DNA from: Ruminococcaceae bacterium UBA6364
GTDB taxonomy: Bacteria > Bacillota > Clostridia > Oscillospirales > Acutalibacteraceae
DNA length: 13,513 nucleotides
NCBI GenBank assembly: GCA_002440045.1
Contig: DJRI01000098.1
Coordinates: forward strand, 72,894 to 86,406
Direction of reading: 5' to 3'
The translations under genes and the position numbers were made by a program. Below are positions 8,103 to 11,744 of this stretch, piece by piece. Position 1 is the first letter of the stretch. Each line of letters begins with the position of its first letter. The notes under the pieces were generated by a model. The model saw only the letters and a program-made list of their open reading frames with translations, was not told the origin of the DNA and ran no database searches.

Positions 8103-9245
8103 TTATTTTTTCTTTCCGCGTTTCTTTTTTAAAGCCACTATTGCTGCCGCGCCCGAAAGCACCGCCGCGCCGCAAGCCCCGATAAGAGCCGCCTTTTGTT
8201 TTAGCATTCCGTCGGCGTCCCAAATATAGCAAAGCTCCGCCAAAACGCCGTCGCCGCAAAGGTCCTTATAAGTCAAAAACTCGGTAGAATAGCTTCCGTC
8301 CTCATAAAGATTGAACACGCGCACGCCGCGGTTTCTTGCGCCGTAGCACCTGAAAGACGCGCACGAAGTCTGAATATAGTCAATTCCGTCAAGCGAAGCT
8401 TCAAAGCAGTTCGGGTGGTCGTGGCCGAAAATAACAGCTTTAACATCGCCGCACTCTTTAAGCGCCGCAGTCTGACCGTTATCGTCGCTCACAACCGACG
8501 GATATTCGTATATTTCGCCGTCAATTCCGCTTTTAAGACGGAAAAACCTGCCTTTTCCCTCGTCACAGCCCTGCACAGCGCCTTTGTCGTTTTCGCCGCA
8601 TTCCTCTAAAAACTCAAGCTCCGTTCTCATGGGGATATGCTGAAACATCAAAGACGGCACGGGTTTTCCGCCGTTTTGCGCTTTAAGCTCCGCGCTTTTT
8701 TTCTTATACCACTCAACGGCCTCGGGCTTTACGCATTCAAAGCACTTATCCTGTTCGCGGTCGTACCAAGCGGAATCAAGCATATAGAGGTTATAGCATA
8801 TTTTCTTGCCGTCCTCTGAATAAATCGGAATATTATATGTGTCGCAATCGGGCGAAGCGGGGTCGTCAAGTCCGACGCAGTTTTTATACGAGCGGTAAAT
8901 ATCCGCCTGCTCGTCTTTTGTGTGGCGGTTTCTGTCGTCGTGATTGCCGTAAATCATCGCAAACGGAATATTTCTTTTTTCAATCGGCGCAACAACGTTG
9001 TCTATCGCCTTTTTCATTGCGCCGAATTCTTTTTCTTTTGTGTCAAGCACAATCCTGCTGCCGAAGCGCGCGTCGCAAAGGTGATTGCCGAGAATGTTGT
9101 CGCCCGTAAGCACAACAAGGTCGGGCTTTACTCTGTCATATGCAATATTCAGCATTCTAACCATAGTCGGTCTTACAAACTGAAGGTCCTGCGGGTCGCT
9201 GACCTGAAGCAAGGTGAATTTTCCGTTTTTAAATTTAAGATTCAT
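8103..9245 (-). CDS. Metallophosphoesterase with C-terminal membrane anchor
   Basis: A 380-aa calcineurin-like phosphoesterase. Metal-ligand motifs appear in the usual order: D17 in QVSDPQD (motif I, with Gln19 where DxH families have His), LTGDN (46-50), YGNHDD (99-104), FQHIP with His203, and FGHDHPN (273-279). The substrate cannot be inferred. Residues about 352-372 are a single hydrophobic Ala/Gly-rich helix followed by a Lys/Arg tail (LKKKRGKKK). There is no N-terminal signal peptide, so a tail-anchored, cytoplasm-facing enzyme is the simplest model. No LPXTG motif precedes the helix. Start ATG 9245 has GGAG (9251-9254) 5 nt upstream. The gene begins 21 bp after the mgtE stop, so the two are probably cotranscribed, and a strong terminator follows. 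Confidence 0.88.
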   Translation of the reverse strand: MNLKFKNGKFTLLQVSDPQDLQFVRPTMVRMLNIAYDRVKPDLVVLTGDNILGNHLCDARFGSRIVLDTKEKEFGAMKKAIDNVVAPIEKRNIPFAMIYGNHDDRNRHTKDEQADIYRSYKNCVGLDDPASPDCDTYNIPIYSEDGKKICYNLYMLDSAWYDREQDKCFECVKPEAVEWYKKKSAELKAQNGGKPVPSLMFQHIPMRTELEFLEECGENDKGAVQGCDEGKGRFFRLKSGIDGEIYEYPSVVSDDNGQTAALKECGDVKAVIFGHDHPNCFEASLDGIDYIQTSCASFRCYGARNRGVRVFNLYEDGSYSTEFLTYKDLCGDGVLAELCYIWDADGMLKQKAALIGACGAAVLSGAAAIVALKKKRGKKK

Positions 9246-9266: not shown

Positions 9267-10619
9267 TTATATTGGTAAAAACATTTTTGCAAAGCCGAAG
9301 TACACAAGAAGCGACACGGCGTCAACAATCGTGGTAATAAAGGGACTTGCCATAACAGCGGGGTCAAAGCCGAGCTTTTTCGCAACTATCGGGAGCGAAC
9401 AGCCTATAAGCTTTGCGCATATTACCGTTACCCAAAGCGTTAAAGCAACAACAAGCGCAACGGTTACGGAAACGTCCGAATTGCCCATTAAAAGCCCGTC
9501 TATCAAAATAACCTTTAAAAATGCGGCTGCTGCAAGCGAAATGCCGCAAAGAATAGACACGCGAAACTCTTTCCACATAACCTTGAAAACGTCTTTCACG
9601 CCGATTTCGCCGAGCGACAGTCCGCGGATTATCGTAACCGAAGCCTGACTGCCCGAGTTGCCGCCCGTATCCATAAGCATGGGAATAAACGCAGTAAGCA
9701 CAACGAGCTTTGAAAGCGCGTCTTCAAACGAAGAAATAATTATCCCCGTAAACGTTGCCGAAACCATAAGTATGAGAAGCCACGGGATACGCGATTTCCA
9801 TATTGAAAACGGCGTTGTGCGAAGATAGGGCTTGTCTGTCGGCGTAATAGCCGCCATTTTCTGGAAGTCCTCTTCCGCCTCCTCCTGCAAAACGTCCATA
9901 GCGTCGTCAACGGTAACGATACCGACAAGGCAAAATTCGTTATCGACAACGGGAAGCGAAAGAAAATCGTATTTATTGAAAAGCGCGGCAACCTCTTCTT
10001 TGTCGGTGTGGGTTTTTACGGAGATTATGTTCGTCTCCATAACGTCCGAAATTTTCTCGCTGTCGTCACAGGTCAAAAGGTCTTTTGCCGTGATTATTCC
10101 GAGAAGCTTGTGCTTTTCGACAACATAACAGGTATAAACCGTTTCAGAGCGAATACCCGCGGATTTGACTTTTTTAAGCGCGTCGCCTATTGTCATCGAC
10201 GGCAAAAGTGAAATGTACTCAAGCGTCATTATGCTGCCGGCGCTGTCCTCGGGATAATTTAAAATTGTGTTTATAGCCGTGCGCTTTTCGCCCGAAAGCG
10301 CAAGCATTCTTTCAACAACGTTGGCGGGCATTTCTTCTATGACGTCAACCGCGTCGTCGATGAACATATCGTCCATAATGCCCTTGATTTCGGTGTCGGT
10401 AAGCGCTAAAAGGAGCACCTGCTCCTCCTCCTGACCGAGATATGTGAAAACCTCGGCGGCGCGCTCTTTTGGAATAAGTCTGAAAAGGATAACCATATCC
10501 TTTTCGTCAAGCTCAGGGAAAAGCTCGGCTATATCGACAGGGTTAAGTGTGTCAAAAATGCTTTTTATAGCCTTGTACTGCTTATCCTGAAGAAGTCTTT
10601 CAAAGATTTCTTTGTTCAT
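9267..10619 (-). CDS. mgtE: Magnesium transporter MgtE
   Basis: A homodimeric Mg2+ channel/transporter of 450 aa, normal for the family. The acidic, helical MgtE_N domain covers residues 1 to about 128. Two CBS domains that sense cytosolic Mg2+ span about 132-250. A linking helix precedes five transmembrane segments (about 278-450). The pore signatures are PMLMDTGGNSGSQAS (313-327) and DPAVMASPFITTIVD (419-433); Asp433 corresponds to the pore Asp432 of Thermus MgtE. The CBS and N domains close the channel when Mg2+ is high. Start ATG 10619 has AAGGAGG (10629-10635) 9 nt upstream. The long leader holds an ORF and a terminator (separate entries), indicating control of transcription elongation. 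The phosphoesterase gene follows at 21 bp. Confidence 0.96.
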   Translation of the reverse strand: MNKEIFERLLQDKQYKAIKSIFDTLNPVDIAELFPELDEKDMVILFRLIPKERAAEVFTYLGQEEEQVLLLALTDTEIKGIMDDMFIDDAVDVIEEMPANVVERMLALSGEKRTAINTILNYPEDSAGSIMTLEYISLLPSMTIGDALKKVKSAGIRSETVYTCYVVEKHKLLGIITAKDLLTCDDSEKISDVMETNIISVKTHTDKEEVAALFNKYDFLSLPVVDNEFCLVGIVTVDDAMDVLQEEAEEDFQKMAAITPTDKPYLRTTPFSIWKSRIPWLLILMVSATFTGIIISSFEDALSKLVVLTAFIPMLMDTGGNSGSQASVTIIRGLSLGEIGVKDVFKVMWKEFRVSILCGISLAAAAFLKVILIDGLLMGNSDVSVTVALVVALTLWVTVICAKLIGCSLPIVAKKLGFDPAVMASPFITTIVDAVSLLVYFGFAKMFLPI

Positions 10620-10705
10620 TTTGTCTTACCTCCTTCATATTTTGCCGAAAGAAAGCGCCTTTTTGGTGCACCTTAAGGCAATTCAACAGAGTATAAGACA
10701 CGGGT

Positions 10706-10728
10706 AAAAAAACAGACCCGAACGAGTC
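10706..10728 (-). terminator. Intrinsic terminator in the mgtE leader (attenuator)
   Basis: On the minus strand GACTC (10724-10728), loop GTTC, GGGTC (10715-10719), then TG and seven T (10706-10712). It lies between the leader ORF stop and the mgtE ribosome site, so mgtE transcription must read through it. Bases 10716-10720 (CGGGT) can instead pair with ACCCG at 10701-10705. That alternative hairpin would destroy the terminator stem and could act as an antiterminator. Confidence 0.65.
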
Positions 10729-10740
10729 AGGCCGACGATA

Positions 10741-10857
10741 TTAAAGCAACGTGCCGAAAAAGCCCGAAACAGCCATGCGTTCCGGAGGTTGCCCGTTATC
10801 ATCGGTATTGACAAAAAGTCTGCTTCGCCCATGTCCGCCGCTACTGCCGGAATCCAT
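10741..10857 (-). CDS. Possible 38-aa leader peptide of mgtE
   Basis: A 38-codon ORF in the mgtE leader, beginning MDSGSSGGHGRSRLF, with NTDDNGQPPERM in the middle and ending SGFFGTLL. Its stop (10741-10743) is 12 bp before the terminator stem, so a ribosome at the end of the ORF would cover the stem's 5' arm. The acidic and proline-containing stretch TDDNGQPPE resembles the kind of sequence that destabilises ribosomes at low Mg2+ in E. coli MgtL-type leaders; this is analogy only. The ribosome site is weak (AAAGGG about 12 nt upstream). The same DNA also forms RNA hairpins, for example CCGGAAC/GTTTCGG, so it could instead be a structured non-coding sensor. Existence as a translated peptide is unproven. 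Confidence 0.4.
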   Translation of the reverse strand: MDSGSSGGHGRSRLFVNTDDNGQPPERMAVSGFFGTLL

Positions 10858-10908
10858 TATCTGTTCACGCCCTTTCGTTATTTTTTACGCGGATTTTCTC
10901 CACAGAAT

Positions 10909-10937
10909 AATATATAACTTTGCCCCTTTTTTGTCAA
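10909..10937 (-). promoter_or_regulatory. Strong sigma-A promoter of the mgtE operon
   Basis: On the minus strand, consensus TTGACA (10932-10937), 17 bp spacer, TATATT (10909-10914). Predicted start near 10902 gives a leader of about 280 nt before mgtE, far longer than needed for simple translation. Confidence 0.8.
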
Positions 10938-11096: not shown

Positions 11097-11744
11097 TCAG
11101 TCGCCGCTGCCGCCGATGAGGCCGATGATGAACTGAAGAACGATAGCGATTGTGTTGATTACGTTGGAAAGGATGCCGAAAGTCTTGGAAGTAGCTTCGG
11201 AATGCTTTTCGCCGCAAACCTTGCAGGTGTCGGAAAGTGTTTCATTGCCTTCTTCGTCTGTGATTACGTCGTAGGAATGAAGCTCTTTGCCGTATGCGTC
11301 GCCGCAAACGCTGCAAACGTTCCAGTGATAGCCGTTATCGGTGTGATAGGGCTCAACAGCAACGTGATAAACGCTGAGGGGCATTTCCTGAGAGTAAGCA
11401 ACAGCTGTTTCGTCGCCGTTCTTGTACTCAACGGCAAACTTAACGATTTTGCCGTTATAGGACTCGTCAAAAGCGAAATCCTTATGAAGGTGAACGAATG
11501 TAGATGCCTCTTCGCCGGACTCTTCGTCAACGCTTGTTACCTCAACGAGAATGTACTCGTCGATAACTTCAACGCCGCGGTTCTCATAGCCGGGGAATTT
11601 AACGGTTTTGCCGGGGCATGTGTGTACGCCTTCAACGGTAACTTCGTCAAAGCAAATTACGTCGTCGCAGGCAGATGCCGAAACAGCGAGAACGCTGAAA
11701 AGCATGAGTACGCACAAAAAGACAGATAAAACTTTCTTTGTCAT
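11097..11744 (-). CDS. Secreted or membrane-anchored protein with paired CxxC motifs, function unknown
   Basis: A 215-aa exported protein I cannot assign. Residues 1-25 are a Sec signal peptide (MTKK, hydrophobic core, cleavage probably after ASA, just before Cys26; the preceding residues do not make a proper lipobox). An acidic, beta-rich middle region (about 30-130) follows. A possible zinc-ribbon comes next, with HWNVCSVCG (Cys144, Cys147), HSYDV (His156) and CKVCGEKH (Cys174, Cys177), a pattern seen in many Clostridia surface proteins. Residues 189-212 form a hydrophobic helix ending GGSGD, which could anchor the C-terminus. The start ATG 11744 has AAGGAG (11754-11759) 9 nt upstream. It is monocistronic, with its own promoter and terminator. 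Confidence 0.75.
   Translation of the reverse strand: MTKKVLSVFLCVLMLFSVLAVSASACDDVICFDEVTVEGVHTCPGKTVKFPGYENRGVEVIDEYILVEVTSVDEESGEEASTFVHLHKDFAFDESYNGKIVKFAVEYKNGDETAVAYSQEMPLSVYHVAVEPYHTDNGYHWNVCSVCGDAYGKELHSYDVITDEEGNETLSDTCKVCGEKHSEATSKTFGILSNVINTIAIVLQFIIGLIGGSGD

Follow-up and report, generated by a model that had tools for sequence, protein, structure and literature searches.

The window, the whole stretch of DNA analysed here, contains 13,513 nucleotides from Ruminococcaceae bacterium UBA6364 (contig DJRI01000098.1). It carries mgtE on the minus strand, preceded by a leader with a short open reading frame (ORF) and followed by a metallophosphoesterase gene. The features of the locus are given below (SD, Shine-Dalgarno).

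10909..10937, minus strand: sigma-70 type promoter of mgtE, TTGACA-17-TATATT, 11/12 matches
10620..10902, minus strand: mgtE leader RNA, about 283 nt; start near 10902 placed from the promoter, mgtE ATG at 10619
10870..10875, minus strand: SD-like AAAGGG for the leader ORF, read from the letters
10741..10857, minus strand: leader ORF, 38 amino acids, MDSGSSGGHGRSRLFVNTDDNGQPPERMAVSGFFGTLL, from the ORF translation and relatives
10822..10857, minus strand: conserved N-terminal stretch of the leader ORF, MDSGSSGGHGRS, from the comparison of relatives
10825..10827, minus strand: in-frame CGA, codon 11 of the leader ORF, from codon counts in relatives
10797..10805, minus strand: S1, CCGATGATA, 5' arm of the antiterminator helix within the ORF, beginning 22 nt downstream of the first base of CGA
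10744..10794, minus strand: hairpin region inside S1:S1', closing pair GGGCAAC/GTTGCTT, containing the 3' end of the ORF, from folding
10732..10740, minus strand: S1', TATCGTCGG, 3' arm of the antiterminator, overlapping the base of the terminator stem, from pairing and folding
10706..10733, minus strand: intrinsic terminator-like element, hairpin 10733-10715 and T7 10712-10706
10689..10700, minus strand: anti-SD strand, TGTCTTAtaCTC, predicted partner of either the mgtE SD region or the ORF
10622..10635, minus strand: mgtE SD AAGGAGG (10635-10629) and TAAGACA (10628-10622), predicted partner of the anti-SD strand
9267..10619, minus strand: mgtE, magnesium transporter (TIGR00400, PF01769)
8103..9245, minus strand: metallophosphoesterase gene, calcineurin-like, 21 bp after mgtE

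Family models identify the mgtE product as a magnesium transporter (TIGR00400, 481.6 bits, with the cut-off at 232.75; PF01769). A relative of the metallophosphoesterase gene adjoins mgtE in 17/17 same-genus loci and 0/13 others among the best 30 mgtE loci, whose flanks were examined. The gene may have a role tied to Mg2+.

A first-pass annotation, made from the letters of the window, had listed a consensus promoter, a leader of about 280 nt, a 38-codon ORF and a terminator ahead of mgtE. All of these are present. It had seen no M-box, and the Rfam covariance-model search of the window leader agrees, finding no family and no M-box (RF00380) even at an E value of 10. The M-box was also absent from locus L001. 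The terminator hairpin of the window has a folding energy of -9.1 kcal/mol, equalled by 8/200 shuffles, and it is imperfect, with two bases separating the stem from the T run. Folding of the complete leader is little better than that of its shuffles (z -1.6, 11/200 as good). Because this fold alone is unremarkable, the statistical case rests on relatives.

Judged by its sequence, the 38-codon ORF is a member of a leader-peptide family with the consensus MDAGSSxGxxxGRS. A search with the MgtE protein in 99 relative genomes gave 30 loci as best matches. An SD-preceded ORF starting with M[DE], within about 300 nt upstream of mgtE, was found at 28/30 of them. The earlier suggestion of an ORF-containing attenuator is supported. 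L024 has only a fragment of a coding gene there, L030 has no such ORF, and L020 and L027 are the least typical. Leaders also precede 15/20 lower-ranked mgtE matches (44-56% identical; partly by eye). In this survey of 20 lower-ranked mgtE loci, as in that of mgtA, the leader was chosen by eye among the listed ORFs. Two leaders, L189 and L201, start with M-S and were identified by eye; both contain CGA.

The N-terminus is MDSGSSGHGRS in most members of the window's genus and MDAGSSxGxxPxGRSR elsewhere. At larger distance it reads MDADNGKGIKPRS, MDDASQNTIAPRL or MDSSPGRSIQ. Codons have been gained in frame, as MDSGSSGGHGRS in the window against MDSGSSGHGRS in most genus members shows. Relatives keep the first 12 residues plus an in-frame CGA codon, and the tail varies in sequence and length (22-41 amino acids in 27 leaders). 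The first-pass annotation had placed a ribosome stall at TDDNGQPPE (residues 18-26). That site does not hold up, since among 17 genus loci only L004 has a similar stretch, QPPER. A sub-type with S-[PA]-[EDN]-[PS]-D-G-[RQ] occurs in the leaders of L158, L160, L162, L193 and L208, before both mgtA and mgtE.

A stricter scan used mgtE genes found through the protein alone, distant ones included. It found an M[DE] leader ORF before 35/55 of these, against 19/300 other genes. This count is preferred over 63/85, which includes loci found by pattern. Of the small SD-preceded ORFs, 35/56 at those mgtE loci and 19/134 at controls have D or E as residue 2. This residue is D or E in 94/96 collected leaders, which is a product of the finder and no evidence, because the finder demanded [ATG]TGGA. 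The order-wide pattern described below fixed codons 2-6 save the wobble positions, so that an AGT excess and third-position freedom are partly built in. Because of these biases in finder and pattern, positions were counted again in the 55 leaders whose loci came from the MgtE protein search. There, each of codons 2-7 varies most at its third position, though modestly, which fits a translated frame.

Beyond the order, 149 genomes sampled from the whole phylum were searched, and each of the best-matching ones contributed one mgtE locus, 29 in all. Their leaders, listed as ORFs with D or E at residue 2 or with a CGA, include MDADPGS, MDGDPGS, METDPGRS and MESDGYPLPK. Outside the order, M[DE]x[DE] precedes 11/28 mgtE genes against 7/300 controls. 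These leaders of other orders (L260-L288) resemble E. coli MgtL, with acidic residues 2 and 4 and a proline, and mostly lack CGA.

The link to Mg2+ transport was also examined independently of mgtE. The pattern M-D-[AS]-G-[SG]-[SG] was searched in 394 genomes of the order and occurred at 67 places, against 7 for the backward control. A clear SD, judged by eye, stands before 35 of the 67. Of these, 32 precede mgtE (the window included), 2 precede mgtA and 1 lies at a contig end (L092). L080, L081 and L094 have SD-like letters that fit less well and have no mgtE. A stricter pattern searched phylum-wide matched in 6/398 genomes, about the control frequency; one match (L104) is a leader before mgtE.

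The leaders of L035 and L097 lie directly upstream of a P-type ATPase that NCBIfam TIGR01524 describes as magnesium-translocating. L097 scores 1065 bits against a cut-off of 610.75, and the L035 fragment scores 535. A leader of the same kind, picked by eye among the listed ORFs, precedes 14/28 mgtA loci. The first-pass annotation had pointed to control of the leader-peptide type, and one kind of leader before the unrelated mgtE and mgtA, as far as sequence can tell, argues for it. The M-box, in comparison, was found in 7/147 genomes of the order under strict filters that lose weak matches. It stands in tandem with the leader at L139, L148, L206 and L274 (mgtE) and at L156, which is the locus of L035 (mgtA). 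L263 has an M-box before mgtE, and its ORF, MDPSPLPSSKK, is unsure as a leader.

In the window's genus the terminator is predicted to compete with a second helix, S1:S1'. S1 lies within the ORF and starts at nt 49-54 in 15 of 17 genus members. Its partner S1' lies at the base of the terminator's 5' arm. The letters vary by species, with CAGCGACA/TGTCGCTG, CGGCGATA/TATCGCTG, CAGCGGTAC/GTACCGCTG and GGCGGTT/GACCGCC beside CCGATGATA/TATCGTCGG in the window. The helix covaries: pairs 1-6 are standard in 16/16 members, with changes on both sides (L002 left out, S1 of L008 placed by hand). The helices were selected as the best, so pairing as such is expected and shuffles serve as the control. A member's own helix lies above the 95th percentile of shuffles in 13/17, L008 having been scored with the wrong T run. 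The mean own score is 20.7, against 16.9 with swapped partners and 14.1 for shuffles; the own helix beats swaps on average only.

When S1 is included in the fold, S1:S1' appears in the window stretch and the 7-bp terminator stem is lost (z -2.9, 0/200 shuffles as good). Folded without S1, the stretch forms the terminator. The window S1' begins right after the ORF stop, and in most genus members it lies further downstream. A ribosome at the window stop would cover S1', which fits a state with mgtE off. The first-pass annotation had offered a different antiterminator, CGGGT (10720-10716) with ACCCG (10705-10701). This pairing is present in the window and has no consistent equivalent across the T run in 16 same-genus relatives, and it was replaced by the conserved competitor S1:S1'. 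Conservation of ORF and terminator in relatives, on which the earlier reading depended, stands for the ORF (28/30, above) and for the terminator within the genus. A strict scan found terminators in 14/17 genus members against 2/48 other leaders, so termination is a local addition in the window's genus. L002 keeps the leader peptide and the SD hairpin and has neither S1' nor terminator, through natural loss or an assembly error.

Besides the terminator there is, in the folding models, a second gate that the first-pass annotation had missed: a hairpin hiding the mgtE SD. A strand complementary to this SD sits just upstream of mgtE, with letters differing among species. In the window, TGTCTTA..CTC pairs with GAG.TAAGACA. 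The same strand is computed to pair with the leader ORF, so that it joins either ORF or SD, as in an anti-SD translation attenuator.

Pairing probabilities were computed on RNA ending before the SD, as during transcription. The ORF:anti-SD pairing probability is 0.48 against 0.20 in synonymous recodings, and it is higher in 37/45 leaders (p 1.4e-7). Within the genus it is 0.53 against 0.26, higher in 11/17 (p 0.005), and in the window alone 0.52 against 0.41. The p values are optimistic, the leaders being related. In a shuffle test of the ORF:anti-SD duplexes, one of the weaker tests, 27/65 leaders fell below z -1.64. A species-swap duplex test was weak, the own strand pair being best in only 5/46 and 1/17. 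The ORF:anti-SD and SD tests used at most 65 leaders; the swap test scored 63 and the recoding test 62. Duplicates (L029, L034, L036, L057, L059, L107-L121, L130), repeated peptides and the unsure L020, L024 and L027 were dropped. The coding RNA appears to be selected to draw the anti-SD strand off the SD.

Folding to equilibrium with the SD present gives a small effect: the SD is free with a value of 0.20 in the free RNA and 0.14 with the ORF masked, the free state being higher in 41/48 distant leaders. In the genus the values are 0.23 and 0.19, with the free state higher in 13/17. The SD is thus mostly paired in both states. Compared with that of synonymous recodings, accessibility in the free state gives a borderline difference (p 0.04 and 0.06).

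The most enriched codon in the leaders is CGA. It occurs in frame within codons 2-18 of 87/96 leaders (82 mgtE, 14 mgtA), and it was a criterion in none of the searches behind this count. CGA makes up 98/180 arginine codons in codons 2-18 and 25/126 later in the ORF. Its share of arginine codons is 4.8% in 67 downstream mgtE genes, and it is 15/176 in the first 18 codons of 155 long ORFs from the leader loci. By frame, the triplet occurs 98 times in frame against 12 and 23 times in the others. The leaders found through the MgtE protein alone have CGA in 51/55 (49/53 without L189 and L201), as 61/91 arginine codons, with 61, 7 and 17 triplets by frame. It is present in 42 of 49 clustered representatives (49/87 arginine codons) and in 9/14 mgtA leaders. 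The codon before it is Gly in 47/87 and Pro in 19/87. The codon after it is AGY in 49 and another in 38, and this variability shows that CGA is not part of one fixed RNA word.

The first-pass annotation had set the peptide against a new RNA fold, to be told apart in relatives. Third positions are indeed the most variable (modestly, codons 2-7), yet the ORF nucleotides also appear to be selected for pairing, so the either/or split does not stand: peptide and RNA are not alternatives here. The same data bear on the best-surviving rival, an RNA that itself binds Mg2+ as a new riboswitch with an incidental ORF. Constraint on the ORF nucleotides exceeds protein need, and the first 11 codons are nearly invariant in 11 genus members, synonymous sites included, as such an RNA would have it. 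The modest third-position variability of the 55 leaders, the frame bias of CGA and a pairing architecture that varies between clades, unlike an aptamer, make the riboswitch improbable. A pure aptamer reading was rejected on the CGA frame bias and the third-position variability.

Slightly less probable again, and doubtful in our view, is an attenuator that senses arginine or general translation capacity (antibiotics included) and not Mg2+. It would account for CGA as the most enriched codon, but arginine codons do not form runs in most leaders, two unrelated families of Mg2+ transporter are encoded downstream, and leader and M-box stand in tandem at L139, L148, L156, L206 and L274. An attenuator of amino-acid biosynthesis was rejected, as the window ORF has no run of codons for a regulated amino acid and a transporter, not a biosynthetic gene, lies downstream. 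A small trans-acting protein, for example one acting on MgtE, would explain a conserved N-terminus with an SD in many species but hardly the variable tail or the selection for cis pairing at the synonymous level, and it is very unlikely.

The reading that we favour, and hold to be probable, is attenuation of mgtE in cis by a leader peptide: how well ribosomes manage to translate a short, fragile ORF would report the cellular Mg2+ level. Leader translation most likely acts as a magnesium gauge. Mg2+ is named as the signal mainly because two unrelated transporters of one ion share one kind of leader. With sufficient Mg2+, ribosomes would read the leader through to its stop codon and so block access to the ORF RNA. 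The terminator would then form (in the window's genus), the anti-SD strand would pair with the mgtE SD, and mgtE would be off. At low Mg2+, translation would fail early, with ribosomes pausing or dropping off in the N-terminal stretch, near the conserved CGA. S1 would pair with S1' and disrupt the terminator, and the ORF RNA would capture the anti-SD strand. With the terminator disrupted and the anti-SD strand captured, mgtE and the phosphoesterase gene would be on. We infer this direction, off on full translation and on after early failure, from the mgtL analogy and from the expectation that low Mg2+ should induce an importer.

S1 could be placed in 15 genus members, and in 12 of these the distance from the start of CGA to S1 is 21-23 nt. 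This spacing would leave S1 outside a ribosome halted at CGA, for a footprint of the size generally given. In L011-L013, CGA lies 6 nt before S1; a halted ribosome would cover S1 there, a misfit with a simple halt.

The genome G020 (98% complete), a relative, has tRNA-Arg with ACG, TCT, CCT and CCG, and no tRNA-Arg with TCG among the 41/45 tRNA matches examined. The window genome has tRNA-Arg ACG, CCT and CCG (15/22 matches examined). CGA is therefore most likely read by the inosine tRNA-Arg(ICG), as no TCG tRNA is among the matches examined. I-A wobble is weak and slow. An acidic residue at position 4 or a P-[DE]/[DE]-P pair occurs in 7 of the nine leaders without CGA, against 20/87 with CGA (Fisher p 0.0017; the sequences are related). 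This suggests that CGA and acidic motifs can stand in for each other in making early translation fragile. An I34 tRNA reads CGU, CGC and CGA in the published passage on it (PMC11066159). More tentatively, the Mg2+ sensor may be a codon and not the peptide. An in-frame CGA, read through I-A wobble by tRNA-Arg(ICG), would fail at low Mg2+, with acidic and proline motifs as the interchangeable alternative.

In Enterobacteria, leader translation is a known means of sensing Mg2+. The nearest comparison is MgtL, the mgtA leader of E. coli and Salmonella. Both are short ORFs before a Mg2+ transporter, SD-preceded in the window, with an acidic residue 2 followed by small or proline residues and arginine. 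In the passages of two papers that describe MgtL, full translation switches the gene off and failing translation at low Mg2+ switches it on (PMC11282234, PMC11552253). The E. coli peptide is MEPDPTPLPRRR, and the leaders from beyond the order are closer to it. The E. coli K-12 mgtL reads ...CCT CGA CGG AGA..., with CGA at codon 10. As regards two exclusive RNA conformations between which leader translation would choose, computed pairings that exist and covary were observed here, and translation may switch between them. MgtL differs in its Rho-dependent termination and its EPDP motif; the leaders here have an intrinsic terminator-like hairpin, in the window's genus only, and a hairpin that hides the SD. 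The start of the window peptide has no EPDP-like acidic/proline motif, only D2. The family here stands mostly before mgtE; the likeness concerns the working only, and no homology is claimed. By this analogy, we propose that the leader works like MgtL, is built differently and lacks the EPDP motif.

The M-box (ykoK leader) resembles the leader in standing before both mgtE and mgtA, and it differs in being absent from the window and found in few genomes of the order. Translation attenuators of the erm type are alike in that a downstream SD is hidden by an anti-SD strand or left free according to how a leader ORF is translated. They differ in peptide and in signal, since erm leaders respond to drugs. 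A passage on the mgtE motif reports it only from Thioalkalivibrio, as a riboswitch candidate (PMC11109978). As described there, it is likewise a candidate RNA that lies upstream of mgtE and takes in the SD; it is confined to that genus, and it is set apart here by its description only. In passages of another account, a different small ORF works together with the M-box of M. tuberculosis (PMC12810186). A search of the open-licence PMC literature found no account of the present leader.

By sequence, the leader family is a conserved mini-gene before a magnesium importer in gut Clostridia. In this order, whose members seldom carry an M-box, leader translation is apparently a common solution to Mg2+ sensing for both mgtE and mgtA. 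For mgtA, a 2024 paper has a passage calling the question of Mg2+ sensing "not fully understood" (PMC11552253). Passages of a review explain mgtL by the m1G37-dependent codons CCC/CCU, CUC/CUU and CGG, and CGA is absent from those passages (PMC6335274). If the codon reading were true, E. coli mgtL would have both elements, CGA and an acidic/proline motif. CGA is a codon-level element that one synonymous change could test, here and in E. coli mgtL. Such a test could separate the codon, peptide and RNA models of Mg2+ sensing.

Beyond the mgtE promoter, the window encodes a secreted-looking protein of 215 amino acids (11097-11744). A Pfam search with it gave no match. A strong terminator-like hairpin (11066-11034) separates its gene from the mgtE promoter. 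Some relatives have a gene at the same place that ends, by eye, in a similar hydrophobic tail.
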